This document shows positions 6,676 through 63,990 of a stretch of DNA of 64,000 nucleotides, one piece after another. Location: NCBI RefSeq assembly GCF_932294415.1, contig NC_065545.1, positions 41,888,327 to 41,952,326 on the forward strand. The letters are read 5' to 3'. Source of the stretch: Quercus robur (lineage: Eukaryota > Streptophyta > Magnoliopsida > Fagales > Fagaceae). The first letter of the stretch is position 1; every line of letters starts with the position of its first letter. The notes under the pieces are model-generated. The model searched no databases. It saw nothing but the letters and a program-made list of their open reading frames with translations, and was not told where the DNA came from. Position numbers and translations under genes: made by a program.

Positions 6676-6677
6676 AT

Positions 6678-6695: not shown

Positions 6696-6836
6696 GAATT
6701 TGTGTCTCGACAAGTGAAACAGTAAGAAATGGAAGGATCAGGCCCGCGTCAAACCGGACATGTAGATTCTCAACGATAGGACAATTTTTTAAATATCGAA
6801 CGAGGGAAAGACCAAGATAATCAGCGAGAGGGCAGC

Positions 6837-8722: not shown

Positions 8723-8758
8723 CCTTTCACTTCAACTGAGAACGGTTTATAGCAATTA

Positions 8759-12078: not shown

Positions 12079-12123
12079 TGAAAGATACAATTCTTAATGC
12101 CGTATTACTGCGCAGCCACTTAA

Positions 12124-12765: not shown

Positions 12766-15242
12766 CTAATAGCCCTGAGTAGGGGCGGGCTGATCATCTG
12801 CTGCTTGGGTCCCCGGGGCAGTCTCTTTGGCCTGTGCAATGATCTCACTAATACGAAGACTGTTCTCAGGTAACTTGCCCTGCGCGGCCTACTCCGTACC
12901 CCCAGCCTCGGGAATGGAGGAGTCCGTTGGAAGAGGCTCTTCGGAGGCAACTTCGTCAGGAATCTCACGTATGTCTTCCTGGAAAAAAACGTTCTCGGCC
13001 TTCCTAAGGTCGGAGTCTGCCGGGACAGCTGCCCGATCCAGGGCTACACCCCAGGACGTGGTGATGTATTTCCTGCAAACGGTGGCCACTTCCTCGGCCA
13101 GCCTGACCTCAGTATCATGGACTCCTCGATCATATGAGGTCGCCACAGCCTTCTCGGCAGCCTCCCTGGCCAAACGGGCCTCCTCCTTGGTTCTTGCAAG
13201 CTCAGCCTTGAGCGTCGAAACCGCCTGCTGCTCCGCCGTGAGTTTCTCCTCAGATTGGCGGAGCTGTATGCGCATGTCGTCAGCTTGCTTTGTGGCATTC
13301 TTAAGGCCAGCTTCCGCGCTCGCATGAGCCTTCTTCACCTCTTTTATCTCATTATTCAAGCGATCAAAATCCTGTTTGAGATCGCCAGCGGTCTTCTCGG
13401 CGGCAGAGCGGGACTAAGCCTCCCTATGCAAGTCCTCACGAGCCTTCTCGGCCCATTCCACGGCAATATAAATTTGTTGAGTGACCTGCACCCAAAAGGA
13501 AATAAAGACCTTGTTAAAACTTGACGATAAGAGGGTAAATAATATGAGAACGAGATAGAAGATTCCATTTACCATTGCCATGTTCCTCTTCAATGACATG
13601 AAGAGATCTGGTTGCCGAGTATTTCTGAGACTCTCCATATCATGAGGCAAGAGAAGAGGCTGCTGCAGGGCCTCAGCTAAAAATGATGCCTGCCCTCGTT
13701 GGGATTCCCACAAGGTCGCATCCCAGGAGATCGGAGCGCCGTTTAATTCGAGCCGTGGCGACGATGTTCGTTGTTCCCTCCGAATGGCCGCCTCATCTCG
13801 GCTATTGACGGACCTAGTCCTCTTGTCTCGGGGCTCCTTCGTCTCCTTGCCCTTCTTCTGAGGTTGGGCCTTTTCGCGGCCAACCTCTCCCTCCTCCGGC
13901 TCTTCTACAGGCTTTTTTCGCCTTAGATTGGGCATAGGCTGTAGCGCCGCATCCGATATGGGGGGGAGAGGGGGAGTAGGAGCCTTAGGGGCAGTTTGTT
14001 CCTTCGAGACGTGCTTAGAGGATTGCCCTTTGTTCCTGTTGGATAGAAGGCTTCTGAGGCCAGACCTTGGTTTCAAGTCCATTCCTTCTTCCTCGGTCTC
14101 TTGGCTGGTGTCAACTTGTGCGACGACTAAACCAGGGTCAGGAGCTGCTGAGGCACGGTCTAAATCTGTGTCGGAGTCCGAGAGCTCTACCACCCTGGCC
14201 GACACTTCTCCCTCCTCGGTAAATTGAAACTGGTCTATTTGTTCTTCTAAGGATGAATGCGAAGAACTAGCCTCCTCCTCCGAGATAATCACTGCAGGAA
14301 AGGCGCATTGGGCAGGCAGCTGAACGAGAGGTAAGTCTGTTGAAGCAAGAAACCCTGGTATGGATACGTCAATACGTGCCAATCTTGGACTGCCAGCCCT
14401 TATAGCTTGACCGGCGTCTACCAAGGATCGAGTGAGGGGAACAAAGTCCAAAATTAAAGGAGCCGACCTTAATTGTCCGTCCTCGTTTATGAAGATCTCA
14501 GATCTCAGGAGGTAATTTAGAGCCGGGACGTTGACCAAGCTCAGCCGAGGAGATGTTCGCTCCTTATCTGCAAAGATCGTTAAAGGGGTTACGTTAGTCC
14601 GAGGAGGCATGCAACCAAACCAATAATTTTAAAAGAAAGAGAGAATTGGGGGGGGGGGGGGGGGAGAGAGCTCAAAACTAAGGTCCTCTCCACGGAATCT
14701 AGTTTTATGACACCTCACCTGGCGTTCCTACCCTAGTCGGACAGTGAATGCCGTCGTGCCATGGTCCGGAGACGATCAAATGGTCGTCCTTTAAGCCTTT
14801 GCTGGACTTGGGAAGGCAGGATATCAACCTCACTTCGTCGGTCCTGGACTTTAAGTAGTATGAGTCGCCGAGCTTATGGCATTCATAGAGATGAACCACG
14901 TCATGCCATGAAAGGCCGAGGTTCATCTGGTCGTTTAAGACGTCTGTGCACCCCAAGATCCGGAACAGGTTCGCGGTGCACTGGTGGGGGGCCAATCTAT
15001 GACCACGTAGGTAGTCCCTAGTTATTCTCCCCATTGGAATCGTCATTCCTCCTTCCACGAAGGCTATCATTGGAATTACGACTTCCCCTGTTCTCCTCTT
15101 GAACAAAATTTCCTCCTGGTGGCAATACTCTAAACCTACCTCCGGTGGAATACGATACTTCGCCCTGAAGCCCGCCATACCAGCCGGAGAGTCTACCAGT
15201 TTTTCAAGCCTACAAATCCTAGACAACGTGAAGGCAGTTTGC
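12766..15242 (-). pseudogene. Antisense gene of element 1 (putative gypsy-type transposon protein plus coiled coil)
   Basis: Three blocks on the strand opposite to pol form a spliced gene: 15242-14716, 14610-13573 and 13485 to 12766. Donor GCCAG/gtgagg lies at the end of block 1. An 87-bp intron (13572-13486) with GT-AG ends separates blocks 2 and 3. Block 1 (KYRIPPEVGLEY..., HLYECHKLGDSYYL, IVSGPWHD) is homologous to the element 2 antisense protein. Block 2 is acidic and low complexity. Block 3 is a long alanine/glutamate coiled coil. A TAG inside block 3 (about 13414) and another at 12889-12891 interrupt it; the frame then runs on to a TAG at 12766-12768. A clear acceptor before block 2 was not found. 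Function is unknown; antisense 3' genes are reported in several Tat elements. Confidence 0.7.
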
Positions 15243-15407
15243 CTAAAGAAGAGTAACGAAGAAAAAGCACGCACTTACGGGTAAGAAACTCGACGGAATC
15301 TTCAAGAGAATGACGGCAAAGGTAAGAGCGTGCTGAAGGAAAAGGCACTGAGATGTTCTGAGTACTGGAGTGTTCGTCAAAAGTGAGGAATGAACGCCTT
15401 CAAAACC

Positions 15408-15414
15408 TTATATA
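15408..15414 (-). promoter_or_regulatory. TATA box for the antisense gene of element 1
   Basis: On the minus strand GTATATAAGG lies about 165 bp upstream of the first recognisable antisense exon and about 280 bp inside the 3' LTR boundary. Element 2 has a TATA box at the matching place. The promoter role is inferred. Confidence 0.45.
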
Positions 15415-15680
15415 CTTAGAGGGAGTTGGACAGACACACTCCCGCCTAGAGCAAATAAAACGTTGTCCACCGTTGATTTGGTCTCCAACCGTTGGATTGA
15501 AAGAGCGTAAAACTCCAAAAAGCTGCAATTAATTCCCCTCGGGTCATTAAATGCCTTCAGCATTAATGAGGCACGTGAGGGCACACCCCCGCACGTGTGA
15601 AGTAGGAATCCGCAACAAACCATCCAGTAGGTATCAAAATCCCGCCTTTCCTCCTCGGACCAAGAAGAAAGAGCCGGAAT

Positions 15681-15693
15681 TTTGAGGGGCTAT
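15681..15693 (+). other. Polypurine tract of element 1
   Basis: TTTGAGGGGCTAT immediately precedes the 3' LTR. It matches the form typical of Tat elements and would prime plus-strand DNA synthesis. Confidence 0.75.
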
Positions 15694-16449
15694 TGTGGGG
15701 GGTAAAATTCATCAGTCAACAGTGGGCCTTGGTGCCCATGCGGAGCCCAACCATAACAGGAAATGAAGACACGGCCAGAGGACTCCCAACCCAGAGGAGG
15801 AGTGTCTCCTCGGACGCACCAAATGGGAGTCCAACTCACACCCTTTACATGGTGAAAAATCGTCCCAAATCACAGGGAAATGCTAGACGTTTAGGGGGCA
15901 ACCACAACTGCCGCATTAAATGCAAGGAAGCTACTTTTCCAGCCGCATTAATGTAGAGAGGACAGGAGAACAGTATTATCTTGGCCAGTACAACTCACAG
16001 AAAAGAAGGAGGATGTCCTATGGGATAGACACTCAAGTAGAGGCCCAGATGGTTAACAAGTGTAGGGCCATTATCAATTGAAGGATGCTATATAAGAGAA
16101 GAAAATCCCCATGACAAAGGGAGGAAAGAGGGGAGAGAAAAAGAAGTAAGGAAAAGAGGGGAGAGAAAAAGAAGTAAGGAAAAGAGGGGAGAGAAAAAGA
16201 TGTAAGGAAAAGGGAAAGAGAGAGAGAGGAGTTCTGTAAACATAGCATAAGATACAGCCCTATAGACTGTTATCCCAGGAAACTTAAAGAAATATCTCCA
16301 CGTTCTAGTGGTTGCATGGCTTACTAATAGTTACCTTTACTCTGTCAAGACCTAGTTCTCTGACTCACTCTCTACAAATTCATTGTTGAGGGTCTTTTGG
16401 GCCAGAATTGCCTGCTTGCTGGGCCTGGGCCCCAAAAACCGCCCTTACA
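15694..16449 (+). repeat. 3' LTR of gypsy element 1
   Basis: The 756-bp repeat has the same ends as the 5' LTR. It lacks a 34-bp segment after CCCAACCCA and has three rather than two copies of the 28-bp purine unit. About twenty substitutions separate the LTRs, mostly transitions. Confidence 0.92.
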
Positions 16450-28510: not shown

Positions 28511-31500
28511 CTAGCTGTGCTGTTTCTTCGCAATAGATTGCTCCGTAAGGTACCTGCCAAAATGCCAGTAAGGCACTTAAAAATAGTCGTAACAACATAC
28601 TTTTTTTTTTTTTTTTGGGAGAGGGAACAACATAATGAATTGCTGTACTACTAAATTTAGGAGGACCAATGAAAACCATTACTAATGCCAAAACCAATTA
28701 GAGAAGCACCATTATGGCGTTTAGATTATTAAAAGTGAAAGATGACCAGTCACAGGCTGAACGACTTGGGTTGACTGTCAATGCCATGACTTCACTTCAC
28801 TCACACTCTATTTGTTTCGATGTAAACTTTGTGTAAAGATAGTTTTTCGTGTTTTCTAGTGTTTGGTAGCATCAGAAAAAATGAGTTAAAAGAAAAACTA
28901 TCTTTGGTCAACAGAAAAAATATGGCTCATTAGAAGATGAGATAGTTTAATAGAAAACACTTTTTGAAAAACGACTCATTTTCTAGAAAATATTATCGAC
29001 AAAACAAATAGTGTCAATATATAAAAAATGTGCTTATGGCTAAAGTGGATTTAATTGGAACAAATCATGGCACTAAGTAACAAACTATAAATATATTAGG
29101 GCTTAAAGAGGAACATCAAGAAAAAGGTAAGCAAACTAAATTGCCTCAAATTTGTGAGGTTGACTCATAAAAAAATAGTTTTTTAGCATTGTGATCCATT
29201 GTGTGTAAGAAGAGAGATATGAAAAGTGACATGTAGCTCAAACCTGGAACATGAAGTGGCTGCATTATAGACAATCAGTATCAATTGAAACAAATCTGTG
29301 TTTAATAATACTACTGAACGGAAACTTGATACTTACTTGCCAGTGTAGAAGCCTGCAGAATACCAAGCATTTAAAACAACAGCCAGATCTGTTTCAGAGC
29401 TAGTACTTTGAGCTGTTTCTCCATCAGTTTTTTCTTTATCTGCATTCCGTGAAAAAAAATTCGAAATATGATAAGACATTAGATCAGCACCCTGTTTATA
29501 TCTACACAATATACATAGTAAAAAAGAATGACAGCTAAACCATCAAAATAAGTTGGTTAGGCAAAGCACAAGTGGGAGCGGGGGATTCAGTTCTTATCAT
29601 GAACCAAAGGGACATCTTAACAATATGCTTTATATGACAAAAAGCAAGGTCATGACATGTAAATAAAACTAAAGCTACTGAGTTTTAAGTCCAGACTCCA
29701 GAGTGTGTTGATATGTTTTAAGTAAGGGATAACAAGTAGAAAAGTAATAATATATAGTACAAGCTTGAAGAGCCCCTCAATTGCACATGTGAACAAATAG
29801 AAAAACAAGTTATCCACAGGGAAAAATAAATAGGGTCCAACAAACGATACAAGCAGATCAACCAAGCAGAAAAAACTACATACCCCAAAGAAACAAAATT
29901 GAGAAATTAGAAAAAATCCAAGTTAAAATGAGGTAAAAGGGGGTCGTCTAATCATCAATGAAAAACAGAAAGGTCAACTTTGCAAGGCAAAAGAAACTAG
30001 TTTTCACATTTCCAAATAGGACCTTTTAACCCAACATTCTAGCTATTTGCATGGCAGCACCATTGATAAACCATCATAAAACTACCAACAAGCAAAATTT
30101 TCATGCAAATCTCTTCCTTTAGGAAATCCATGCTCACCTTCATTTATATTAGAATCACCAGAAATTTGTGGCTTCACGGAAGATAGTGCCCTTTCTGCAG
30201 CTCCCATTGCTGCTTGGACAATGTTACCATCTTTGAGAAGGCAAGATATTTCACTTCTAGGAACCGTTGCCATAGAACCATCAGTGCAAGTCTTGCCCAC
30301 ACATGTCCCACCCAAAGAACAGCCAGGACATGAAGTACATGGGGCCGCCAAGCATTGGTAAACATAGGGGCAACATGAACAGACTACATTTGGATGAGAA
30401 TCTAGGCTTGCAGGGATAGCATGTTCTTGAGAAGTAGAACAGCTACCCCACTGTACACCAGAACCTTCACCAGAATATTGATAGTTCCAACCACCATATT
30501 GATGAAGCTGCTCCAAAATCTTTTGCCTATTCTCCTCAAGCTCATAATACGAGTTGAGTAACTTGTTATAATCCTCTGCACCATGATAATATGAACTGTC
30601 TTTACTGGCATCTTGCTCGAGTAGACTATTTGATGAATTTATATAGGGTTCAGGTGCATGTGAATCTACACAATGATTTTCTTTAACTTCTGAAAGATTA
30701 CTAGTCTCTCCTGAGTATATTGCAGTACTTGATGCAACAGTGCTTTTCTCATCTGCGTCCCTAATTTTTATGATTTAAAAAATATATATATTTGAGAGAT
30801 GGTAAAAAATTTACACTAAAAATAAGCAAAAGAATATAAGCCCAGAAGAACAACAATTGCTTTGCATGCAATACTAGAATTTATGCAATGATCTAGTTTT
30901 GAGGAATTTATGCAATGATCTTTTTGAGCTTATGTAATTTTTTTTTTTTTTTTTTTTTTTTGATAGGTAATAGAAAGTTTTATTGAATAAAAGTACATCA
31001 TGTTCACGATGGTGAACAAATTGTACTTGAAACAATTACAAAAAAATCAAAGAGAAGAAATAAGATTTTGAGCTTATGTATGCCTGCATGACCTGTATGC
31101 AACTATTTTCGGTTAATTTTGACCCACATATTGTGACTTAACCCTTTATTTTGCATTAGTATAAAATAAAATAGTTCTCATGCACAATATCAATACAAAG
31201 CATAGAGACAAAGAATGATAGTGTACATTCACCTTCTTTCTCCTCCTTTTAATAAAAAAAATAACATACTCTTTGCATAATATCAACAAAAAAATGTAGA
31301 GACAAAGAAAGATGATAAGGTCTATTTTATTTTTATTTTAAATTATATTGCTTTTATAGGATCAGCACACTTTCCCCTCATTTTAGATAAAAGCTTTCCT
31401 ATGGTGGGGTTTAGCTTGATAAGCAAGTATACTGCGAAGACACAATATTCAATTCATAATTCAACATGAAACAGAAAGCATGGTGCTAATACTTCTTTTT

Positions 31501-40431: not shown

Positions 40432-41028
40432 TCATGATGCCGAAGAAATTACCAGTAAGTCACACAATCCTTGCGCACTCGAAATAGCACCTGCACGACA
40501 AAAAAGAGAAGACCTAACAGAGGGCACTGGTGTGGTGCCGGCCAAATACCCTCCGAAGGTCAAGTTAGAACTATTCTCACAACTCTAGAGTGCTAGAGAG
40601 GGTAAATTATGCGTACCTTGGTTTGCGAGGGTGCTTGGGTTTTTATAATAGTAGAGGGTTGACCTCTTTTCCTTGGAATAGAAGTCCTTTCCTTATAGGA
40701 GTCTTCTTGGGTGTATTTCGCGGGATCCTTTCCATATAGGAATCTCTTTGGGTATCACTAAACGTGGAGAGAAAGACATTTCATTATATACGCAATCATG
40801 GGTGGCAAGCAATCCTTTACTAAGGTCGTCAGCTTACCCTACGCCTTCAGCCTTAATCCAGTCAGCTTCATGATCCAGTCAGCCCTTGGGTATGCCTTGC
40901 CGGTGCCTCTTTCTAAACATCCCTTTCATTGATACCTATCAATGAAGGCTAACGGGTTTAATTGTATCCATCCTCTCTTAACCGTCGACTTGTCTTATTG
41001 TAAGTAATCTCCATTTTTATCCACATCA
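40432..41028 (-). repeat. 3' LTR of gypsy element 2
   Basis: The 597-bp LTR reads TGATGTGGATAAAAATGG at its start on the minus strand. Its last bases are GCATCATGA, where the 5' LTR has GCATCATCA. A TATATAA box is present on the minus strand (near 40785-40792). Confidence 0.85.
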
Positions 41029-41247: not shown

Positions 41248-41257
41248 TATATATAAG
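41248..41257 (+). promoter_or_regulatory. TATA box for the antisense gene of element 2
   Basis: TATATATAAG lies about 245 bp upstream of the antisense ATG at 41501. It has the same relative place as the minus-strand TATA box in element 1. A CT-rich leader with TCCGTCAGC-like blocks follows. Confidence 0.5.
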
Positions 41258-41500
41258 TGGCACCTCCTCCTTATTCTCTCTATTTCATCCTTGCTGATCT
41301 TAGAGAGAGAAAGCCCGTCGTCCTTAATTTCGTCAACTCATTCCTTACTTCCGTCAGCTTGTCCGTCGCTATCCTTGAGGCCTTTCTTCTTTAGAAAGCT
41401 AACTTACTAGTAAGTTCCATTTTCTCTTCTTCTTTTTCTTTTGCATTTTTTCTTATGACTGAATAATTCCCTAGTGAGGACATTAGCTTAGGTACTTAGA

Positions 41501-43763
41501 TTGGATCCGTCACTTGTAGGTAGTCAGATGTCAAGTGACGCATCGTGTGAAGAGGCGTCAGTCCGCGAAGGAGCGGGCTACGACGAGGCCTTTGGTTCAG
41601 ATGATGAGTCAAAGGACTTCTCACCTTCGTCAGAGAGAGAGACGTCGGCCCAATCTCCCAACGGTGATGGTGAGAGTTATGCTGAGGGGGGTGAGGAGGC
41701 GGAAGACGAAGGAGAGGACAAAGTAGAAGAGGGAAAAAAGAGAAGTGGAAGTGGCGGGGATGATGTTGATGGTGACGAGGAATCCAGTGAAGGGACCTTA
41801 GAGGGTCCCGGGGATAACCGTCCTTTCATTCTTCCTGAGGATTAGGCCGTCAACAAGTTCTTACCTATGATGAGTGATAAGGTTTTTAAGGAGTTGCATA
41901 CTCGTTATCGAATTCCAGACCATATCCCAATCCGTCTTCCTAGAGAGAATGAGAGATGTTACTCAGGGAGAACTGCTGACGTTGGCATGTATGATGCCAT
42001 GTTTGTTGCGGGGCTTAGATTGCCGCTGACGGCCTTACATCGTCAGCTGGCTGATTTTCTGGGTCTGTCCGTTACTCAAATTGCTCCGAATGCCTGGAGA
42101 ATTTTTATAAGTGCTAAAATCCTATGGGGTCATCTTAGTGGAGGAAATCGTCAGCTTACCTTGGACGAGTTCTTTTATTACTACAGACCCCATCACATCA
42201 CGTTTTCAAAGGGGACATACCACTTTAATGCCCAGGAGAAAGGTTTGAGGCTAGTATCGGATATGCCAGATTCCAATAGGAACTGGAAAAGTAGGTATTT
42301 CTTTGTTAAGGGGACGGATTGGGTATGCCGTCAGGAGGAATGGGAGACAATGCCCCATGGTTACTTTGACAATACTTGGGTTTTTGTCAGGGATTCAGGT
42401 TAATCTCGTCAACCATTTTTCCCTTGTTTTGTGGTGACGCTTCTAACACTATCTTTCCCTTATTTTCAACTAATACCTGTCCCCACATAACTAACGAACA
42501 TGAGGAGTTTATCCGTCGGGTTCTTGACGTTCCATTAGAGTAGCGAAAGTGCAGGGACTTAATCACCCTTGACACCCTCCATTTATACTGCGGGGGCCCT
42601 GAACCGATGCCTGAAGCTCGAAGATTGGACGAGTATTCTCGTCGTCGTAAGTAGATTTTCCATCATTTCCGTCAGGTTTTCTTCTACCGTCTGTTTTTCT
42701 AACGAACGTTTTCTGTCTTTCGCAGAAATGGATATTGCTAAGTAAAGGGTGAGGGCGACTGCCGCCTGTAAGAAAAAGGAAAAGAAAGCTAAGGAGGCAG
42801 AGGGGGGGACCTTGTCAACCCCCAAGACCATCACCAAGGCTCCAAAAAGGAAACCCGACGGGAGTGACGACCGTCCGTCTAAGAAGGCTGCCATCACTCC
42901 TGGGGACATTTCTCCCAAGGGAAAATCTCCCTTTAAGCCAAGCCACGGTGCGAGCAAGGGGGTAATGACTTCCTCAGGTCCCATCATCGAGGGTCCTTGT
43001 TGCCTCTTAACCCACAAGGACTATGCCGTCGGGGAGGTTGGGTCCTTCATAAAGCCGACGAATATAGGGCCTTGCGACTTGTTGGGGACGGAGGACTTAG
43101 GGGCGTCGGCTCTTTTTGATCTTACTAGGGTATGCTTGCTGCCTTTTGGTCAAGTTGGTTTCATTTCGTTTTGATTTACTTTGACTGATGCCTGTGTTCT
43201 TTCCTCAGGCCTTGGTGCGTGTCAAGGCCCTTCAGGATCGTTGTGTTGCCAAGGAGGGGGTTGTCACCCAGGTCCGGAAATATAATACAAATTTGATGAA
43301 TGAGCAGGGGCAATACAAGGAGGTTGTCCGCACGCTGAAAAATGAGCTGAAAGAAGTTAGGGGGAAGCTGGAGGAGGCTGACCGTCAAAAGGAAAAGCTG
43401 CAGCAAGAGGTGACGGATCTGAACAAAAATGTGGAGATGGCTGGGACTGACGCCGTTCGAGAATTTAAAGCGCTGCAATCATTCATTGACTCTTGTGCCA
43501 AGTATTATGGCACTGGGTTTGATGATTGCCTCAAACAAGTTACATCAGTTTTTCCAGAGCTGGACTTATTCGAAATTACAATGGACGACGAAGGTGACGG
43601 CTCTCCTGAGTCCAACCCTCCTCCAAAGGATGACGATGTCGTTGTTCTCGCCCAGCCTGCTGCCAATCCTCCTCCTACTCCTGCTTCCAACTCTCCAACT
43701 GTGTTCATAGATGTTGAAAATCAGAACGATGACGGGAACCCTGCTGGCGCCCCTGCTACTTAG
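41501..43763 (+). pseudogene. Antisense gene of element 2 (putative gypsy-type transposon protein plus coiled coil)
   Basis: Opposite to pol, likely exons are 41501-42402, about 42480-42649, 42726-43131 and 43210-43763, with donors ATTCAG/gttaat and ACTAG/gtatgc and acceptors tttcgcag and cctcag. Exon 1 has an acidic N-terminus, then the conserved block TRYRIPDHIPIRLP... GLRLPLTALHRQLADFLGLS (about 41900-42390), homologous to the element 1 antisense protein. Exon 2 has the RDL..LDTLHLYCGGPEP type motif. Exon 3 is lysine-rich and could be nuclear. Exon 4 is a coiled coil (LKNELKEVRGKLEEADRQKE) with an acidic, proline-rich tail. In-frame TAG codons occur at 41843-41845 and within exons 2 and 3. 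The role is unknown. Confidence 0.72.
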
Positions 43764-44803
43764 TTTCTTTATTTGTATTTCAATTATTTTGTAAACAATC
43801 GTTTAACGTGTATTTCAATTACTTTTCAAACAATTGTTTAAGTGCCCCTCTGGTTTTTGGGCTTTTATTTGTATGCAGTTTATTTTGTTATGTGGCATGT
43901 TACTCATGTCGTCTTTATATATATATATATATTAATCAGTGATTGTGCTAGGCGAAGTCCTTGGCCGTAATCCCGTATGATTTGGGAAACCCATCAGCTT
44001 TTTAAGGGTGGACTGGTTCGAAAAATATGATGATATAGGCTTCGTGTGACTTATAAGCCTGTCCACCTCATTGATAAGCTTGTTGGTTTCATAAGCTTTA
44101 CCTTTTGGGCATTTAATTGCGTCACTGACCCCATAACCTCGTCCATTTCGTAAGAGACGTTATTTTTCTAGGCCCGTCAGCTTTGTGGCTTTTATCCATG
44201 TTAAGTGCCTAATGGTTCTGTCATTTTTAATAGCCTGTCGGCTTCATAGCTTCGTCCATTGAAATTATTATTTTCATAATCTCACTTGCTTTAATGAGAC
44301 CATTGGCATTTCCAACTTCCAGTCGTTTTACGGACCTAATGACCTTGCCATCTTGTAAGCCCGTCGGTCTTATAACCTTGTTTAGGTGAGTCTCATCCAT
44401 TCGGTGAGACCGTCAGCTTTTTTGCTTCCGTCCATACTATGGACTAAATAACCTTGTCTCTTTATAAGTCTGTCGGCTTTATGGTGGTCTCATTCATTTG
44501 GTGGGACCGTCAACTTTTTTAGCTTCCGTCCATGCTGTGACCTTTCATTCTCGTAGGCTCGTTGGTTTTATGTAATGATGGTCTCATCCATTTGGTGAAA
44601 CCGTCGACTTTTTAGCTTCCGTCCATTTTATGGACTTCATTTAATTATCTCATCCATTCACTGGGACCGTCAGCCTTATAGCCTTGTCCACTATAAGGAC
44701 TTGACGAACTTGTCACTTTTATGATTTCCTCTTTTTGAGGGAATTTAACAGCGTTTTATCCTTTTTGGGGTGGGTTCATCCACCTTAGAATTGTTTACTT
44801 TTT
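43764..44803. repeat. Degenerate CGTCNR-type repeat region of element 2
   Basis: No gene. Diffuse repeats of blocks such as CCGTCAGCTTTTTAGCTTCC and TCATCCATTYRGTGRGACC appear. They seem to be old relatives of the ordered minisatellite that follows. An (AT)n run is at 43917-43932. Confidence 0.55.
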
Positions 44804-45300
44804 GTGAACTCAAGGCCGTCCGTTTTAGAACCGTCCACTTTGTGTGAACTTAAGGTCATCTACTTTATGGACTTAGGATCGTTCACTTTGTGTGAACTTA
44901 AGGTCGTCCATTTTATGGACTTAAAACCGTCCACTTTGTGTGAACTTAAGGTCGTCCACTTTATGGACTTAAGGTCATCCACTTTATGGACTTAAGGTCG
45001 TCCACTTTGTGTGAACTTAAGGTTGTCCACATTGTGTGAACTTAAGGTCGTCCACTTTATGGACTTAAGGTCGTCCACTTTATGGACTTAGGATCGTCCA
45101 CTTTGTGTGAACTTAAGGTCGTCCACTTTGTGTGAACTTAAGGTCATCCACTTTATGGACTTAGGATCGTTCACTTTGTGTGAACTTAAGGTCTTCCATT
45201 TTATGGACTTAGAACCGTCCACTTTGTGTGAATTTAAGGTCGTCCACTTTGTGTGAACTTAAGGTCGTCCATTTTATGGACTTAGAACCGTCCACTTTTC
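44804..45300. repeat. 23-25 bp minisatellite of element 2
   Basis: About twenty units alternate between two types, GGTCGTCCACTTTATGGACTTA and GGTCGTCCACTTTGTGTGAACT. The first contains the inverted pair GTCCA...TGGAC. The tract lies between the antisense gene and the integrase end, matching the 81-bp tract of element 1. The open frame over 44804-44995 is repeat translation. Confidence 0.9.
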
Positions 45301-45520
45301 GTGGACCATAAACTTGTAGAAAGAAACTTCAGTCAATTCTGAATAAACTCCTCTTATGCATTCATAGAAAAAGTAGCTCTTAAAAAAGAAAAAAGGTCTT
45401 GCCCTTTGGACTTTAAAAAGATATTGTAGCAAAAACTAAAGAAAATGATAGAACTGAGGAGTATAAAAATTAACTACGGTGAGCTGTAAAAAGAAAGGGT
45501 TGGTATTCATGTCGTTATCT

Positions 45521-46658
45521 CTATTGGTAATACTTTCGCAAGTGCTCGATATTCCATGGATGTGGCAGCTTCTATCCGTCTAACGTCTCCAGATAGTAAG
45601 TGCCTTTCCTCTGTCATGATGTGATCCGGTAAGGTCTTTCCCAATTAGGGCCGAGCTTCCCTTGGGTGGGGTTTTTAGCAGCGCCCATGACTTTCCTTAG
45701 AATGAGATCTCCAACTTGGAAGTCTCTGCGTCAAACCCGTGAGTTGTAGTGCTTAGCCATGCGATCCTGGTATCATGCTAGCCTTTATTATGCTGCCACC
45801 CTGACTTCATCTACTAGGTCAAGTTGTAGACGCAAGGCCTCGCCGTTTTTGCTGTCATCGTGGTTATGCACCTTGTAGCTTGTAAGTCTGACCTCAGCTG
45901 GTATGACTGCTTCGTTCCCATACGTTAGCCAAAATGGTGTCTCTCCTGTGGGCATCCTCCTTGTCGTCCTGTATGTCCATAGTATGCTTGGCAACTCTTC
46001 AGGCCATATACCCTTTGCCCCCTCGAGCGGAGTCTTGATAATCTTGAGTAAGGATCGGTTCGTGACTTCGACCTGACCGTTAGCCTGAGGGTGGGCAGGG
46101 GAGGAGTAGTGGTTCTTTATCCCTAACTGCGAGCAAAAATCTCGGAAGGAGTTGTTGTCGAATTGCTTCCCATTATCCGAGACAAAAACTCTAGGGATGC
46201 CAAACCTGCATATGATGCATCTCCAGACAAAACTCCATACGTTCTTCTCCATAATGGTGGCCAAAGCTTCAGCTTCCACCCATTTTGTAAAGTAGTCAAT
46301 GCCACTACCAGGAACTTTAGTTGTCGTACTATTGTAGGGAATGGTCCCATAATATCTAATCCCCACTGAGCGAACGGCCATGGGGCCATCATCGGGGTCA
46401 ACTCTTCGGTTGGTTGTCTAATAATATTGCTGAACTTTTGGCATTTGTCACAGGTCTTAAATAAGCCTCGGTATCCTTCTGCATGGTAGGCCAATAGTAC
46501 CCTGCTCGCACAAGCTTGTGCACTAATGACCTTGATCCCGAATGGTTTCCACAAATCCCCTCGTGTACCTCCCTCATGACGTAGTCCGCCTCTTCCGTAC
46601 CCAAGCATCTCAGATATGGACGGGAAAAGCCTCTTTTGTACAGGACATCTCTTATCAA
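45521..46658 (-). pseudogene. Integrase of gypsy element 2
   Basis: Minus-strand blocks in order: HHCC finger (VHEGICGNHSGSRSL, then CDKCQKF), DDE core WGLDIMGPFP, VSDNGKQFDN and NGQVEVTNRS, and a C-terminal GPNWEGPYRI. Frame changes occur near 46450 and 46310. Stops lie around 45780 and in the C-terminal part (45521-45780). The three acidic catalytic residues are present. Confidence 0.87.
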
Positions 46659-46799
46659 GACGAATCTCGCCGCTTAGACCTTCAGCTTTCTTGCAGCCTC
46701 CTTTCTATCTGGCAGGACCCGCTTTTTAAGTATGAAACTAATGGTGCGGTCCAGTTACTTTTAGAGCCTATCTCCTGTATGTCGTTGGAATCTACTAGT

Positions 46800-47711
46800 G
46801 GAGAAAGCTGAACAAAAGAGAGTACATTACTAGGGATGATCATATGCCCTGTTGAAGTGGCCTTGGCAAGGCAATCAGCTTGCTCATTTTCTCCTCCTGG
46901 GGATTTGGACGATTTTGGCCTCTAGGTCGTCTACTCTTGTCCTTACTTGATCAAGGTACCTTTTCATCATTTTGCTATTGCACTCATAGTCTCCATTTAC
47001 TTGGTTAGCAATGACCTAAAAGTCGCAGTAAACGACTACGCTTGCGGCTCCTGCTGCTTTGGCGAGGTCGAGGCTTGCTACTAATGCTTCGTACTCTGAT
47101 TCATTGTTGGTAGTAAGGAAGTCGAGATGGACCATACATTCAACCGTATCTCCTTTGGGTGACAATAGCACGATGCCGGCCCCCTCGGCTTGTCTGTTGG
47201 ATGATCCGTCCATATATATGCTCCAATGAGGGGACTCTTCTGCCCCCTTGTCTTCGTTGTGAGTGAACTCTGCTATGAAGTCCGCGACGACCTGTCCTTT
47301 GATGGCAGTCCGTGGGCGATACTGGATATCAAACTCGCTTAACTTTATAGCCCATAGCGCTAGTCGACCCGCGGCTTCAGGATTGCTTATCGCCCGTCGC
47401 AAGGGTTTGTCGGTCAGAACGTTCACTGTATGGGCTTGAAAGTATGGCTTGAGCTTGCAAGCTGCAGTTACTAATGCAAATGGGAGTTTCTCCATAGGTA
47501 GGTATCTTTCTTCGGCACCGCGAAGCACTCGGCTCGTTTAGTATACAGGCTTTTGCACTATTTCTTCTTCTCTGACTAAGGCAGTGCTGACGGCTGTGGA
47601 GGAAACGGCCAGATAGAGGAAAAGCTCTTCCCCTGGCTGCGATGGGCTTAGCAGCGGTGGGGAAGAGAGATAAGCCTTCAACTCCTCAAATGCTTGCTGA
47701 CATTCGACTGT
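46800..47711 (-). pseudogene. Dual RNase H region of gypsy element 2
   Basis: The first RNase H is degenerate (LRGAEERYLPMEKLPFALV). The archaeal-like second RNase H has WSIYMDGSSN, NNESEYEALV, VVVYCDF and, past a TAG at about 47016 and a frame change, NEQADCLAKA. All four acidic positions are traceable. A further TAG separates it from RT. Confidence 0.82.
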
Positions 47712-48809
47712 CTACTCAAATGATCTCTTCAGCGTGCAGAAGAAGGGCAAACATTTATCCGTTGCCCTCGACATGAACCTATTTAGTGCCTCTATTTTTC
47801 CGTTGAGGTTTTGTACTTCCTTCACATTTCTCGGCGATGCCATCTCCATAATGGCCCGGATCTTGTCCGAGTTGGCCTCAATCCCCCTTTGAGACACCAA
47901 AAATCCTAGGAATTTTCCTGCCGTTACTCCGAAGGCGCATTTTCCTGGATTGAGCTTCATGTTGTAAGAACGAAGGGTGTCGAATGTTTCCTTGAGGTCT
48001 CCCAAGTGATCCTCCTCCCTTCGGCTTTTTACCAGCATGTCGTCAATGTAGACTTGGACATTCCTCCCAATTTGCTGCGCGAACATTTTGTTCATAAGCC
48101 GCTGGTACGTTGCGCTCGCATTCTTTAGGCCGAAGGGCATTACTTTATAACAGAAGAGGCCTTGATTGGTTACAAACGAGATTTTCTCCTGATCAGCGTC
48201 GTGCATTCGGATTTGGTTGTAACCCGAAAAAGCGTCCATAAAGCTTAACAGCTTGTGCCGAGCCATAGAGTCTACTAGAATGTCGACCCTTGGGAGGGGA
48301 TAACTGTCTTTGGGGCAGGCCTTGTTAAAATTGGTGAAGTCTACGCACATCCGCCACTTCCCGCTAGCTTTTTTAACCATTACTACGTTCGCTAGCCAAT
48401 CGAGGTAGTAGACTTCCCTAATGAAATTTGCGTCCTGTAGTTTACGGATTTCTTCCGCTATGGCCTGATCTCGCTTCGAGGAGAACACCCTTTTTTTCTG
48501 TCGAACGGGTTGGAAGGAAGGCGATACATTTAACCTATGTACCATGACCGAAAGGTCTATCCCCGGCATGTCTTCATGGCTCTAGCCGAATACGTCCCGA
48601 TTACTCCAATTTTGGCGGATCGCGGGATTAGCCAGGGTTCCAATTTTGGTCGTTCGGTCAGGATTAGAATTGTTTAGGAGTATCTCTTCTACCGGCTCCA
48701 TCACCATCCGATGCTCTTCTATATTTATGGCCTGGACTTGATCCTCCATTTCCATCATGGCCATGTAGCATTCCCGTGCGGCCACTTGACTTCCGCGCAG
48801 CTCTCCCAC
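47712..48809 (-). pseudogene. Reverse transcriptase of gypsy element 2
   Basis: A 285-aa open segment (48569-47712) holds WRMCVDFTNFNKACPKD, LLSFMDAFSGYNQI, FGLKNASATYQRLM and VQVYIDDMLVKSR. The YIDD active site is intact, unlike element 1. The upstream linker (48809-48585) is in the same frame but is cut off by a TAG at 48582-48584. The open part ends at TAG 47712-47714. If the stops were polymorphic the RT itself could be active; as read it is broken. Confidence 0.9.
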
Positions 48810-50706
48810 TCCGTAGTCGGTAGGTTGAAGTTACAACCCTCCACGAATTGAGCATGGGTCGTCCAAGGATAGCGCTGTAGGCAAACGAGCAATCGACCAC
48901 CAGGAATGTTACGTCCTTGATGATCTATTGCGGGTAATCACCTACCATTATGGGCAATGTGACCACGCCTAGGGGGAATACCCGACTCCCTCCAAAGCCA
49001 ATGTGCGGGGCGTTCGTCGGAATCAATCGTTCCTTGTTGATACTTATCTACTAAAACGTCGGGTAGTATAGGATATCTGCTAAGCTGCCGTTGTCGATCA
49101 ACACCCGGTGCATGTTGTAGTCTCCTACCCATATGCTGATAACAAGCGCGTCGTCATGCGGGTGGTGAAGACATCGCGTATCTTCTTCTGAGAACCTGAT
49201 AATGGGGCCTTCTCTCCGTACTATCTTTGGCACGGCTCCCGTCAGCTGAACATTTTGTACTATCCTAAGGTAGGTTTTGCTGGCCTTTTTGGACGACCCA
49301 GCGGCAGCTGTTCCTCCCACGATCATCCTTACGTCCTCTATGGGGGGTCTTGGTCGCTCATTATCCTGCCGGGGGTGCTGGTCTTGTGAAGGTGGATATG
49401 TTCTCTCCTTACTGACTAACTTCTGTAGTTTTCCTTGTCTGATAAGGGACTCAATCTGCTGCTTTAGGTCATAGCAATCGGCCGTGTCATGACCATGGTC
49501 ACGGTGGAAGCAGCAATATTTATCCCTTGACCGTTTGTTGGGATCACTCTTCAGCTTTCCAGGGAACGTCAGAGCCCCCTCGTCCTTGATTTGCATTAGG
49601 ACTTGATCTATCGAGGCGGCCAATGGAGTGAAGCTTGTGAATCTTCCTCCCAGGGGCTTAGGGCGTCTTTCATCCCTTCGGTTTCTTGTCCTTACCTTCT
49701 TTAGGCCTTGGTCCTGCCGTGTGTCTTCTTGCCTCTCTCTTTTCTTGGGTCTTTCTTTTCGGGCTAGCAGTGCGTCTTCAGCGTTCATATACTTGGTGGC
49801 CCTGTAAAGCACCTCTAACATGGTCTTCGGGTCGTTTTTGTACAAGGAAAACAAAAACTTACCATTCTTCAGCCCATTAGTGAATGCTGCTACAAGTATC
49901 TTGTCGTCGGCTTCGTTGATCGAGAGTGCCTCCTTATTGAAGCGGGATATGTAGGATTTCAGCGTCTCCTCCTCTCGATGCTTGATGCTCATCAAGCAAG
50001 CTGTAGACTTCTTGTACCTATGTCCCCCGATGAAGTGCGCAGTAAATTGAGCGCTTAACTCCTTGAAGGTGCTGATGGAGTTGGGCGTCAACCGGCTGAA
50101 CCAAATTCTTGCCGCACCCTTTAGTGTTGTAGGGAAGGCCCTACACATGATCGCATCTGCTACTCCTTGAAGGTGCATCAAGGTCTTAAAGGTCTCTAGT
50201 TGATCTAGAGGGTCCTTGACCCTGTCATAACTATCTATCTGTGGCATGCGGAACTTACTCGGCAGGGGGAAGGAGTTGACGGAGGCGGTGAATGGCGAGT
50301 CAATTCGGTTAACAAGGTCGTCAAGATCGCTGGACACTCGTCCCTTTAGAGCGTTCATCATAACTTCCATTTGTTCCTTCTTTGCCTGCATCTGCGCGAT
50401 AATAGGTGGCAGAGCTGTATTTGCGAGGGAAGGGAGGCTCACGTTTTGTCGCTCCGGCCTACTTGGGGCGTTACAGGCCTATGGCCCCTCTTGATTCTTT
50501 CTTTCAGCGCTGGTTCCTTCTTGATCTGCTCCTTGGTTGTCAAGTGCTGCGTTTCTTTGGTGTAGTTGCTCTTCTAGGTCGCGATTTTGTTTGGTGAGAC
50601 ATTCCACGACAGCGGCGAGAGTTTTAACTTGTCTCTCGAGGGCAGTCGTGGGTGGTTCTTCTTCTTGAACGTCGTTAGTGGTTGCCATTGAGCGAGTGAG
50701 CACCAT
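48810..50706 (-). pseudogene. gag-protease of gypsy element 2
   Basis: Gag starts at ATG 50706 with a short coiled-coil segment (LERQVKTLAAVVECL). A TAG near 50479 interrupts; the same frame reopens at 50442 for 463 aa. The gag core (IWFSRLTPNSISTFKELS) and the C-x2-H-x4-H-x4-C knuckle CCFHRDHGHDTADC match element 1 in spacing. The protease site VLIDNGSLADILYY follows. After two stops near 49051 the second protease half is seen as FAYSAILGRPMLNSW (about 48840-48890), then a frame change. Confidence 0.87.
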
Positions 50707-50768: not shown

Positions 50769-51365
50769 TGATGATGCAGAAGAAATCAGCAGTAAGTCAC
50801 ACAGTCCTCTCACACTCAAAATAGCACCTGCACGACAAAAAAGAGAAGACTTAACAGAGGGCACCGGTGTGGTGCTGGCCAAATACCCTTCAAAGGTCAA
50901 GTTAGAACTATTCTCACAACTCTAGAGTGCTAGAGAGGGTAAATTATGCGTACCTTGGTTTGCAAGAATGCTTGAGTTTTTATAGTAGTAGAGGGTTGAC
51001 CTCTTTTCCTTGGAATAGAAGTCCTTTCCTTATAGGAGTCTTCTTGGGCATATTTCGTGAGATCCATTCCATATAGGAATCCCTTTGGGTATCACTAAAG
51101 GTGGAGAGCAAGACATTTCCTTATATACGCAATCATGGATGGCAAGCAATCCTTTAATAAGGTCGTCAACTTACCCTACGCCTTCAGCCTTAATCCCATC
51201 AGCTTCATGATCCCGTCAGCCCTTGGGTATGCCTTGCCGGTGCCTCTTTCTAAACATCCCTTTTGTTGATACCTATCAATGAAGGCTGACGGGTTTAATT
51301 GTATTCATCCTCTCTTAACCGTCGGCTTGTCTTATTGTAAGTAATCTCCATTTTTATCCACATCA
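50769..51365 (-). repeat. 5' LTR of gypsy element 2
   Basis: A 597-bp LTR of the same length as its partner at 40432. The minus-strand start is TGATGTGGAT and the end is GCATCATCA. A TATATAA box lies near 51121-51127. Confidence 0.87.
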
Positions 51366-57075: not shown

Positions 57076-58890
57076 ATACTAATTGTAGTTACATAGGAAT
57101 TGGGAACTTTAGGTGATGCACCAAAATGCATGGCAGCCTTGTGTCCTTGTATGTTTTTTATTTTTTATTTTTTTTGGTTAATATTGATAGGTAATGATAT
57201 AGAACTTATTTATTAAATATAAAATAAGAGTTTAAATCTTAAGTCATTAACATCTAATTTAACACACTTTTATTTTAGAATAGATATCTTCAAGGAAAAT
57301 ATATAAAGAAATTAAATTTAATAAGGATGCTATGCAAAAGCATATGTTTACGCCATCCAATAATATCCTGCCACGTCAGAAATTTTAAAATAATTGCACA
57401 TAAAATATTAAACCATAATACACACAATTACTACTTATTTCAGTAGATTAAAACCCTAAATTAAACTTCCTTTAGAACCAATACACCAAGGGAAGTTGCC
57501 GGGAGCAAATCATTCTCAACCAAGCATCAAGGTCGTCGTGCAAGCCAATATTGATCAATTGATTCCATTAGCGCAAGTGGCAAAGCAATCATGATTTTTG
57601 CCTAAAGGTGCATCAGTTGTCTCCATTGAAACAGGACTTCAAACACATCAAGTTTAACAAATGCTCATTGACCAAGCCACCACAATCTGCACTTCAATTG
57701 AACCTTTGAGGATTTTTTATTCCCTTTAATAAAAAGATAACCAAACTGCAGAATAACTAAACCATAAGAATAACTATTACATTATAATGCCTAGTACAGT
57801 CTACCAAACGTACCCTCATTCTAATGAGTGAGGGAAAGCGGGTGGATGGGTAGGTAGGAATGGGATAAAAGCAAAATAAATGACACAAAAGACAAAACAT
57901 TAACAATGGATGGGTTTAAGGAAAAAAATATACAAAAATACTACAATGTGGCTTACGTTTTAAACCCAATAGAAGTAAAAATTTTTAAAAAAAAAAATAC
58001 TAATTGCAGTTACATGGGAATTAAGAACTTTGGGTAATACACCTAAACGCATGGCAGCCATGTGTCCTTGTATGTTTTTTTTTTTTGGTGTGTTAATATT
58101 GATTGGTAATGACATATAACTTTTTTTTTTTTTTGGACGAACTGACATATAATTTATTTATTAAATATTAAAGAATAGTTTGTATTTTAAGTCATTAACG
58201 TCTAATTTGACACTTCGTTATTTTAGAATATATCTCTTCAAGGAAAATATATAAAGAAATTAAATTCAATAAGGACGCGGTGTAAAAGCCAATGTTTACG
58301 CCATCTAATAATATTATGACACGTTATAAATTTTAAAATAATTGCACACAAAATATTAAACCGTAATACACATAATCACTATCTATTTCAGTAAATTAAA
58401 ACCCTAAACTAAACTTCCTCTAGAACCAATACACCAAGGGAAGCTGTCGGGAACCAATCATTTTCAACCAAGTTTCAAGGTCCTCGTGCAAGCCAATCTT
58501 GATCAAGTGATTCCATTAGCGCAAGTGGCAAAGCAATCATAATTTTTGCTCAAGGGTGCATCCATTGTCTCTATTGAAACAGGACTTCAAACACATCAAG
58601 TTTAATAAATGCTCATTTGCTCATTTGCCCAAGCCACCACAATCTGCAGTTCAATCGAACCATTGAGGATTTTTATTCACTTTTATAAAAAGATAACCAA
58701 ACTATTGAATAACTAAACCATAGGAATAACTATTACAATACAATGCCTATTACAGTCTACCGAACGTACCCTCCATCTAATGGGTGGGGGAAAGCAGGTG
58801 GGTGGGTAGGTAGGAATGAAATAAAAGCAAAATTAATGACACAAAAGACAAAATATTAACAATGGGTGGGTTTAAGAAAAAAATACACCA

Positions 58891-59045
58891 CCGTACACCC
58901 TTGGTGCGGTGATCACTTCACAAGTATAAATGCTGAAATGCATGTGGGGTGTTGGGGGCAAGGGCCGGGGTTCAAGTTTCCAAGAGGGAGTTTCACATAC
59001 ATATACACTTAAATTATGCTAGAGTAGAAATTCTATATTGTATAA
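58891..59045 (+). mobile_element. tRNA-derived SINE in array unit 3
   Basis: CTTGGTGCGGTGATCACTTC (A-box region), GCCGGGGTTCAAGTTTCC (B box), TTAAATTATGCTAGAGTAG and a poly-A tail. It interrupts TTTAAGAAAAAAATACAAAA at about 211 bp from the unit start. Confidence 0.8.
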
Positions 59046-62000
59046 AAAATAAAAATAATAAAATAAAATACAAAAATACTACGGTGTGGCTTACATTTTA
59101 AAGCCAACAAAAGTAAAAATAAAAAACAAATAAAATAATACTAATTGCAGTTACATGGGAATGGACAACTTTGGGTGATGCACCTAAACGCATGACAGCC
59201 ATATGTCCTTGTATGTATTTGTTTTTTTTTTTTTTTTTGTCTGTTAATATTGATTGGTAATGACAGATAACTTTTTTTTTTTTTTTTCGTGAATTGACAT
59301 ATAACTTATTTATTAAATATTAAAGAATAGTTTGTATTTTAAGTCTTTAACATCTAGTTTAACACTCTTTTATTTTAGAATAGATCTCTCAAGGAAAATA
59401 TATAAAGAAATTAAATTCAATAAAGACGCAGTGTAAAAACCTTTGTTTACGCTATCTAATAATATTCTGCCACGTTATAAATTTTAAAATAATTGCACAT
59501 AAAATATTAAACCGTAATACACACAATTATTATCTATTTCAATAGATTAAAACCCTAAACTAAACTTCCTCTAGAACCAATACACCTAGGGAAGTTGTCG
59601 GAAACCAATCATTCTCAGCCAAGCTTCAAGGTCCTCGTGCAAGCCAATCTTGATCAAGTGATTCCATTAGCATAAGTGGCAAAGCAATCATGATTTTTGC
59701 TCAAAGGTGCATCAGTTGTCTCTATTGAAACAGGACTTCAAACACATCAAGTTTAACAAATGCTCATTTGCTTATTTGCAAAAGCCACCACAATCTACAC
59801 TTCAATTGAACCATTGAGGATGTTTTATTCCCTTTAATAAAAAGATAACCAAACTACTAAATAGCTAAGCCATAGGAATAATTATTACATTACAGTGTCT
59901 ATCACAATCTACCAAATATACCCTTAATTTAATGGGTAAGGGAAAGCAGTTGGATGGGTAGGTAGGAATTGGATAAAAACAAAATTAATGACACAAAAAA
60001 CAAAACATTAACGATGGGTGGGTTAAGGAAAAAAAAATACTACATTGTGGCTTACGTTTTAAAGCCAACAAAAGTAATAATAGAAAACAAATAAAATAAT
60101 ACTAATTGCCGTTACATGGGAATTGAGAACTTTAAGTGATGAACCTAAACGCATGGCAGCCATGTGTCCTTGTATGTTTTTTTTTTTTTTTTTGTGTTAA
60201 TATTGATTGGTAATGATATCTAACTTATTTATTAAATATTAAAGAATAGTGTGTAATTTAAGTCATTAACTTCTAATTTAACACTCTTTTATTTTAGAAT
60301 AGATCCGTTCAAGTAAAATATAAAAAGAAATTAAATTCAATAAAGACGTGGTGTAAAATCTTATGTTTGCACCATCAAATAATATTTTGCCACGTCATAA
60401 ATTCTAAAATAATTGAACATAAAACATTAAACTGTAATACACACAATTACTATCTATCTCAGTAGATTAAAACCTAAACTAAACTTCCTCTAAAACTAAT
60501 ACACTTAGGGAAGCTGCTAGGAACCAATTATTCTCAACCAAGCTTCAAGGTCCTCGTGCAAGCCAATCTTGATCAAGTGATTCCATTAGCGCAAGTGGCA
60601 AAGCAATCATGATTTTTGCTCAAAGGTGCATCCATTGTCTCTATTGAAACATGACTTCAAACACATCAAGTTTAACAAATGTTCATTTGGCCAAGCCACC
60701 ACAATCTGCAGCTCAATTGAACCATTGAGGATTTTTTATTCACTTTAATAAAAAGATAACCAAACTACTGAATAACTAAACCATAGGAATAACTATTACA
60801 ATACAGTGTCTATTACAGTCTACCAAATGTACTCTATCTCTAATGGGTGAGGGAAAGCAGGTGGGTGGGTAGGTAGGATTGGGATTAAAGCAAAATTAAT
60901 GACACAAAAGACAAAACATTAACAATGGGTGGGTTTAAGAAGAAAAAAAAAATACAAAAATACAACGATGTTGCTTACGTTTTAAAGCCTACAAAAGTAA
61001 AAATAAAAAACAAATAAAATAATACTAATTGCATTACATAAGAATTTAGAACTTTGGGTGATGCACCTAAACGCATGGCAGCCATGTGTCCTTGTATGTT
61101 TTTTTTTTTTTGTGTGTTAATATTGATTGGTAATGACATATAGCTTTTTTTTTTGGACGAACTGACATATAGCTTATTTATTACATATTAAAGAATAGTT
61201 TGTATTTTAAGTCATTAACTCCTAATTTAACACTCTTTTATTTTAGAATAGATCTCTTCAAGGAAAATAAAAAAAGAAATTAAATTTAATAAGGATGTGG
61301 TGTAAAAGCTTATGTTTGCACCATCAAATAATATTCTGCCACGTCATAAATTTTAAAATAAATGAAAATAAAATATTAAACCATAATACACACAATTACT
61401 ATCTCTCAGTAGATTAAAACCTAAACTAAACTTCCTCTAGAACTAACACACTTAGGGAAGTTGCAAGGAACCAATCATTCTTAACCAAGGTTCAAGGTCC
61501 TTGTGCAAGCCAATCTTGATCAAGTGATTCCATTAGCGCAAGTGGCAAAGCAATCATGATTTTTGATCAAAGGTGCATCCATTGTCACTATTGAAACATG
61601 ACTTCAAACACATCAAGTTTAACAAATGCTCATTTGCTCATTTGCCCAAGCCACCACAATCTATAGTTCAATTGAACCATTGAGGATTTTTTATTCACTT
61701 TAATAAAAAGATAACCAAACTACTAAATAACTAAACCATAGGAATAACTATTACAATACAGTGTCTATTACAGTCTACCAAATGTATCCTTAATCTAATG
61801 GGTGAGGGAAAGCAGGTGGGTGGGTAGGTAGTATTGGGATTAAAGCAAAATTAATGACACAAAAGACAAAACATTAACAATGGGTGGGTTTAAGAAGAAA
61901 AAAAAAATACAAAAATACAACGATGTTGCTTAAGTTTTAAAGCCTACAAAAGTAAAAATAAAAAACAAATAAAATAATACTAATTGCATTACATAAGAAT

Positions 62001-63830
62001 TTAGAACTTTGGGTGATGCACCTAAACGCATGGCAGCCATGTGTCCTTGTATGTTTTTTTTTTTTTGTGTGTTAATATTGATTGGTAATGACATATAGCT
62101 TTTTTTTTTGGACGAACTGACATATAACTTATTTATTACATATTAAAGAATAGTTTGTATTTTAAGTCATTAACTCCTAATTTAACACTCTTTTATTTTA
62201 GAATAGATCTCTTCAAGGAAAATAAAAAAAAGAAATTAAATTCAATAAGGATGTGGTGTAAAAGCTTATGTTTGCACCATCAAATAATATTCTGCCACAT
62301 CATAAATTTTAAAATAAATGAAAATAAAATATTAAACCATAATACACACAATTACTATCTCTCAATAGATTAAAACCTAAACTAAACTTCCTCTAGAACT
62401 AACACACTTAGGGAAGCTGCAAGGAACCAATCATTCTCAACCAAGGTTCAAGGTCCTTGTGCAAGCCAATCTTGATCAAGTGATTCCATTAGCGCAAGTG
62501 GCAAAGCAATCATGATTTTTGCTCAAAGGTGCATCCATTGTCACTATTGAAACATGACTTCAAACACATCAAGTTTAACAAATGCTCATTTGCTCATTTG
62601 CCCAAGCCACCACAATCTATAGTTCAATTGAACCATTGAAGATTTTTTATTCACTTTAATAAAAATATAACCAAACTACTGAATAATTAAACCATAAAAA
62701 TAACTATTACAATACAGTGTTTATTACTGTCTACCAAATGTACCCTCAATCTAATGGGTGAGGGAAAGTAAGTGGGTGGGTAGGTAGGATTGGGATTAAA
62801 GCAAAATTAATGACACAAAAGACAAAACATTAACAATGGGTGGGTTTAAGAAGAAAAAAAAAATACAAAAATACAACGATGTTGCTTTCATTTTGAAGCC
62901 TACAAAAGTAAAAATAAAAAACAACTAAAATAATACTAATTGCAGTTACATAAGAATTGGGAACTTTGGGTGATGCACCTAAACGCATGGCAACCATGTG
63001 TCCTTATATGTGTTTTTTTTTTTTTTTTTTTTTGGTGTTAATATTAATTGGTAATGACATATAACTTTTTTTTTTTGGACAAACTGACATATAACTTATT
63101 TATTAAATATTAAAGAATAGTTTGTATTTTAAGTCAGTAACTTCTAATTTAACACTCTTTTATTTTAGAATAGATCTCTTCAAGGAAAATATAAAAAGAA
63201 ATTAAATTCAATAAGGACGTGGTGTAAAAGCTTATGTTTGCACCATCAAATAATATTCTGCCACGTCATAAATTTTAAAATAATTGAACATAAAATATTA
63301 AACTGTAATATACACAATTACTATCTATCTCAGTAGATTAAAACCTAAACTACACTTCCTTTAGAACTAATACACTTAGGGAAGCTGCAAGGAACCAATC
63401 ATTCTCAACCAAGCTTCAAGGTCCTCGTGCAAGCCAATCTTGATCAAGTAATTCCATTAGTGCAAGTGGCAAAGCAATCATGATTTTTGCTCAAAGGTGC
63501 ATCCATTGTCTCTATTGAAACATGACTTCAAACACATCAAGTTTAACAAATGCTCATTTGCTCATTTGCCCAAGCCACCACAATTTGTAGTTCAATTGAA
63601 CCAATGAGGATTTTTTATTCACTTTAATAAAAAGATAACTAAACTACTGAATAACTAAACCATAGAAATAACTATTATAATACAATGCTTATTACAGTCT
63701 ACCGAACGTACCCTCAATCTAATGGGTGAGGGAAAGCGGGTGGGTGGGTAGGTAGAAATGAAATAAAAGCAAAATTAATGACACAAAAGACAAAACATTA
63801 ACAATGGGTGGGTTTAAGAAAAAAATACAC

Positions 63831-63990
63831 CACCGTGCACTCTTGGTGCGGTGGTCACTTCACAAGTATAAATGTCTGTAGGGTGTTGGGGGCAAAGGCC
63901 GGGGTTCAAGTTTCCAGGAGGGAGCTTCACATACATATATACTTAAATTACGCTAGAGTATAAATTCTATGTTGTATCAAAAAAAAGAAA
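63831..63990 (+). mobile_element. Same SINE at the same position in array unit 8
   Basis: It has the same body and the same insertion point (about 210 bp from the unit start) as 58891. The tail runs to the window end. Confidence 0.8.

Follow-up and report, generated by a model that had tools for sequence, protein, structure and literature searches.

The 64-kb window, the whole stretch of DNA analysed, is plant-like judging by the two Ty3/gypsy retrotransposons it carries, and contains an antisense gene within one of them (element 2). The gene runs opposite to pol in the region separating integrase from the 3′ LTR, as the initial annotation had proposed; this placement is borne out by the LTRs, Pfam matches and open frames, and the observation is confirmed. 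The copy in element 2 is, however, a pseudogene. It probably represents a decayed antisense accessory gene of the Retand lineage (aORF-3R, the Transposase_28/TRP28 gene), which in intact relatives would encode a nuclear, trans-acting regulator. This reading builds on the observed element, its open frames, a weak domain match, a homologue in a second element of the window (element 1) and the decay of the copy. The Retand antisense accessory gene is already known and the element 2 copy is another, broken member; the part worth following is the spliced layout shared by two elements.

Element 2 is a minus-strand Ty3/gypsy element of the Tat/Retand type, whose 3′ LTR (40432-41028) and 5′ LTR (50769-51365) were delimited by comparison of the LTR pair and their flanks. 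The LTRs differ at 39 of 597 positions, and the flanking GTGGC and GTGGT resemble a 5-bp target duplication with one change. A primer-binding-site-like stretch just inside the 5′ LTR and a purine-rich stretch are found at the inner LTR borders, one at each. The gag-pol region (45527-50478, minus strand), comprising gag, RT, RNase H, a second RNase H and integrase, was traced by Pfam and by tblastn with pieces of element 1, with Pfam matches in four of its five pieces (gag, RT, RNase H, RVT_3 and integrase). RT_RNaseH and then RVT_3 are found in the piece preceding that of the integrase, and the Pfam domain order in element 1 is likewise RT_RNaseH, RVT_3, integrase. With RVT_3 taken as the second RNase H (aRH), an aRH is located between RNase H and integrase, an arrangement which marks the Retand lineage but is common to Ogre, having been reported for both (PMC6317226). 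A further mark of the Retand lineage, a long region between pol and the 3′ LTR harboring an antisense ORF, is found in both elements; the corresponding distance is ~4.5 kb for element 2 (45527 to 41028) and 3.6 kb for element 1 (12078 to 15694), compared to a published Retand range of 2.9-6.6 kb (PMC11963269). Frame changes and 20 stops, the latter counted by eye in the tblastn segments and partly situated in a frameshifted-looking stretch, interrupt the gag-pol of element 2, making it very probable that the entire copy is dead. A tandem array of short-hairpin units (44784-45326) is located between integrase and the antisense gene, where the 3′ ends of pol and of the antisense gene converge; the RNA of its minus strand has a folding energy of -169.9 kcal/mol, compared to a mean of -119.7 for shuffled sequences (z -8.4; 0/100 shuffles as good).

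The antisense gene of element 2 is encoded on the plus strand. The TATA box placed at 41248 by the initial annotation is indeed present, as TATATATAAG (41248-41257), 220 bases inside the 3′ LTR, with the octamer TATATAAG starting at 41250. A promoter-like TATA box upstream on the antisense strand, as would be expected of an accessory gene of the Grande gene23 type, is present in the sequence of both elements, that of element 1 being TATATAAG at 15414, 279 bases from the LTR. Across the 64 kb, nine copies of TATATAAG were counted on both strands compared to 3.26 expected, a number reached by 2/100 shuffles. Five of the nine belong to the two elements: three of the four LTRs carry the octamer in sense (at 6343 and 16089 in the LTR pair of element 1, and at 51120 in the 5′ LTR of element 2), and each antisense leader has one copy, at 15407 (read from 15414 on the minus strand) and 41250. 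A candidate 5′ UTR intron with a GTAAGT donor and a TTGTAG acceptor can be predicted at 41410-41519. The single other ATG between the TATA box and the presumed start codon at 41528 is found at 41455, within this intron, and as such splicing of the leader intron would be required for the ATG at 41528 to come first.

The multi-exon layout that had been claimed for the gene holds in the sequence. Four exons (41528-42398, 42470-42646, 42726-43129 and 43209-43763, the last with a stop codon at 43761) join in frame over 2,007 nt, or 669 codons including the final stop, and no frameshift is required within any of them. The longest plus-strand frames, measured from stop to stop, are 192 and 185 codons in length; among 2,000 random sequences from a first-order Markov model, a longest frame of at least 192 codons occurred in 0.85%, and a second-longest frame of at least 185 never occurred. 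The three putative coding introns measure 71 (42399-42469, phase 1), 79 (42647-42725, phase 1) and 79 nt (43130-43208, phase 0), and their T contents of 0.451, 0.443 and 0.481 place all three above every exon window of their own length (maximum 0.380; 1,727 windows of 71 nt and 1,695 windows of 79 nt). The plausible GT-AG borders that had been ascribed to the introns stand for the second (GTAAGT...CGCAG) and third (GTATGC...CTCAG), but not for the first, where the donor is present and no AG is found at the frame-keeping acceptor position of this copy.

Several features of the predicted protein likewise agree with the initial annotation. Its N-terminus is acidic (residues 1-105; 35 D+E against 8 K+R) and residues 350-484, encoded by an exon 3 with a PKRK-type nuclear signal, are basic (24 K+R against 15 D+E). 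The conserved domain reported after the acidic N-terminus, also in exon 1, was recovered in an HMM search as a match to Transposase_28 (PF04195; E 0.00039; 21.0 bits), while the corresponding match in element 1 is weaker (E 0.24; 12.1 bits). Both scores fall below the curated Pfam cut-off of 26.2 bits, and the block is therefore referred to as Transposase_28-like. The long coiled coil is placed at the start of exon 4, ahead of the tail, by many weak family matches and a heptad count, the best match being to Tropomyosin (E 0.0012; 18.8 bits, under the cut-off of 38.6). A structure prediction from a two-sequence alignment reached a pLDDT of 34.8 and a pTM of 0.27, and searching this alignment against solved structures yielded nothing meaningful (best E 0.64). 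A helix-turn-helix reading of the TRP28 block, made by eye, was rejected, as the pattern is missing from element 1 and the structure model is unusable.

The initial annotation also considered a working gene, an idea not supported for this copy in view of defects it had left unreported. Premature stops occur at 41843 in exon 1, 42541 in exon 2 and 42743 in exon 3, so that an uninterrupted spliced frame is lacking, and together with the missing intron 1 acceptor they break the gene. That the element 2 copy still yields a working protein is thus highly improbable, even though its four exons need no internal frameshift. Based on the divergence of the LTRs (K 0.069, half assigned to each copy), between 1.9 and 2.5 stops, depending on the transition weight, would be expected under neutrality since insertion, against the three observed in 669 codons. 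The count is compatible with neutral decay and the antisense gene was therefore probably whole when element 2 inserted, and has drifted since.

A homologous antisense gene occupies the same place within element 1, which is located on the plus strand at 5914-16449, with LTRs at about 5914-6675 and 15694-16449 and TATGG on both sides, as judged by eye. This gene (12889-15414, minus strand, with an uncertain 3′ end) has its TATA box at 15414 and its first ATG at 15178, followed by exons at 15178-14719, 14567-13573 and 13485-12889; position 13416 holds a premature stop. The first blocks of the two products share 24% amino acid identity (pairwise BLASTP E 3e-4) and a Smith-Waterman score of 98 against a shuffle maximum of 61 (0/5000 shuffles as good), and on this similarity they are homologous. 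The coil exons are weakly similar (4/2000 shuffles as good), while no similarity between the elements was detected for exon 2 and the pre-coil exon (1899/2000 and 1136/2000 shuffles as good, respectively), comparisons in which the middle exon of element 1 was represented by its first 120 and last 130 residues only. Full-length blastp of the two products gave nothing significant (best E 0.90). In element 1, an 81-nt tandem repeat (12124-12510; 4.8 copies) lies in the region separating integrase from the antisense gene, and a stretch of 91 nt at 56580 resembles part of the LTRs of this element at 70%.

Both antisense genes show a similar order of TATA box, ATG, TRP28-like block, phase-1 intron, PKRK/RRKK-type signal, phase-0 intron and coiled coil. 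The acidic N-terminus is present in the product of element 2 and absent from that of element 1, and there are three coding introns in the former gene and two in the latter. In both, the first block is followed by a phase-1 intron and the coil is preceded by a phase-0 intron. In a global alignment, the phase-1 introns are offset by 30 columns and the phase-0 introns by 8, in poorly alignable stretches, and as such the positions can be called comparable but not demonstrably homologous. T enrichment is evident in the second intron of element 1 (0.437, where exon windows reach at most 0.333) but not clear in its first (0.325, with an exon-window maximum of 0.318).

The precedents in Grande and Retand that had been invoked for the gene find support in the literature. 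Antisense TRP28 ORFs have been reported in 97% of recently active Retand clusters (Vicient 2025, PMC11963269), while by other criteria Transposase_28 was found in 23% of Retand elements (Neumann 2019, PMC6317226). Retand elements furthermore harbor SMC-like antisense ORFs and tandem repeats in the same region, and a DNA-binding capacity has been predicted (PMC11963269). Element 2 resembles the Retand TRP28 ORFs (PF04195) in the position between pol and the 3′ LTR, antisense orientation, TRP28-like domain and tandem repeats; the published ORFs are, however, listed separately and are mostly at least 600 bp, whereas those of element 2 are read here as exons of one spliced gene (PMC11963269). In maize, Grande gene23 is transcribed in antisense from its own promoter and yields a nuclear product (Gomez-Orte 2013, per PMC7264820). 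Element 2 shares with it the antisense orientation and a putative promoter of its own, but contributes a signal-like stretch alone where Grande has a nuclear product, and the likeness is one of description (PMC7264820) rather than of sequence comparison. Common bean Ty3/gypsy families such as pvRetro13 similarly carry an opposite-strand extra ORF2, in some cases with an SMC domain match, of the coiled-coil type, which is listed as a single ORF and is again compared by description (PMC4093653). Relative to the Retand TRP28 ORFs, the element 2 copy is old and broken, with a Pfam score under the cut-off. The HBZ gene of HTLV is spliced, and its product has a basic leucine zipper. HBZ and APH-2 of the HTLV group are also antisense genes with nuclear products, a likeness of layout for which no homology is claimed (PMC11963269, PMC7264820), and the HTLV antisense promoter is situated within the 3′ LTR whereas that of element 2 is inside the element (PMC7264820).

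From these features we infer transcription, splicing, nuclear entry, self-association and a regulatory role for the gene in intact relatives. Its transcription would run opposite to gag-pol, starting at a TATA promoter that belongs to the gene itself and lies a short way in from the 3′ LTR, and the antisense transcript would be spliced into an mRNA. Translation would yield a nuclear protein that combines a Transposase_28 domain with a basic nuclear signal and, for self-association, a coiled coil; the most likely role of this protein would be to regulate, in trans, the transcription or the nuclear steps of the element. Counted against this accessory-gene reading are the Pfam scores below cut-off, the dissimilar exons, the lack of a significant full-length blastp match, the offset intron positions, the unequal intron numbers, the missing acidic N-terminus and the not clearly T-rich first intron of element 1, the ATG in the leader and the poor structure model, as well as the high divergence of extra-ORF proteins, for which having any function has been questioned (PMC6317226).

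Roles as a protein or as dsRNA have both been proposed for the antisense gene (Vicient and Casacuberta 2020, PMC7264820), and the main rival is that the antisense transcript itself is the working product, pairing with the 3′ genomic RNA and leading to small-RNA silencing or interference with reverse transcription, with the protein being secondary. The gene is situated opposite the coding strand between pol and the 3′ LTR, where its RNA would overlap the 3′ genomic RNA, and antisense control has been described for yeast Ty1 (PMC12786077). Pairing would, however, need neither the homologous protein domain nor the long open frames kept in two diverged elements, and we consider control by the RNA unlikely, although the strongest of the alternatives; the protein reading is preferred.

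A host-derived passenger, as put forward in the initial annotation, would account for the introns and own promoter, which are host-gene-like. Its recent capture by element 2 alone is nevertheless very improbable given the homologue at the same place in the diverged element 1, the domain's presence in 97% of recently active Retand clusters and the reported absence of TRP28 similarity outside transposable elements (PMC11963269), while capture of a host or viral gene in the distant past may have taken place. Chance can hardly be credited as the source of the frames and splice signals, in view of the frame lengths, the intron T content, the homologous domain (0/5000 shuffles) and the Pfam match, even if a TATAWAR motif alone is not rare, occurring in 15% of random leaders for element 2 and 3.5% for element 1.

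Within the accessory-gene reading, the two copies in the window suggest a single gene that is spliced and has a promoter of its own, instead of a set of separate frames. The introns of such a gene would survive reverse transcription, as splice signals on the antisense strand would go unrecognised in the genomic RNA template. The proposal that introns persist on the antisense strand only was rejected, given that Ogre carries a sense intron between gag-prot and RT which is spliced from part of its transcripts (PMC6317226). Ogre and element 2 are thus both intron-keeping Tat-clade retrotransposons, the intron being in sense in the former and the introns antisense in the latter (PMC6317226), while reporter assays use the reverse arrangement, with an intron in sense to the element that is then spliced out (PMC12786077). 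Survival through antisense placement would in turn suggest entry as genomic DNA. Tentatively, and with the balance falling just short of even, the separate Retand antisense ORFs (Transposase_28 and the SMC-like coil) could be exons of a single ancient gene that is spliced and has a conserved arrangement of promoter and introns; antisense placement would have kept its introns, and the gene would have entered as genomic DNA and not by way of a processed transcript. This interpretation may be less described than the ORFs themselves, and we do not claim that it is unpublished; the word "intron" does not occur in PMC11963269, PMC7264820 and PMC4093653, and both mentions in PMC6317226 concern the sense intron of Ogre. 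If there is one spliced gene, surveys that list ORFs split its protein, the protein to test is the complete one that unites TRP28 domain, nuclear signal and coiled coil, and the introns provide a clue to its origin and to its placement on the antisense strand.

Database comparisons were performed against contig collections comprising viral, bacterial and archaeal records, and as such the absence of plant relatives there says little. The 185-amino acid frame had no match in the viral contig collection, while the two-sequence alignment gave 22 pattern matches among viral contigs and 28 among genome contigs, none of which was confirmed. Rfam and tRNA scans of the 64-kb window found none. Elsewhere in the window, a 230-codon open frame (30082-30774, minus strand) without a Pfam match up to E 1 is possibly part of a host gene, and a satellite-like array of seven copies, with a period mostly near 955 nt (911-1152), extends from 57177 to 63858.
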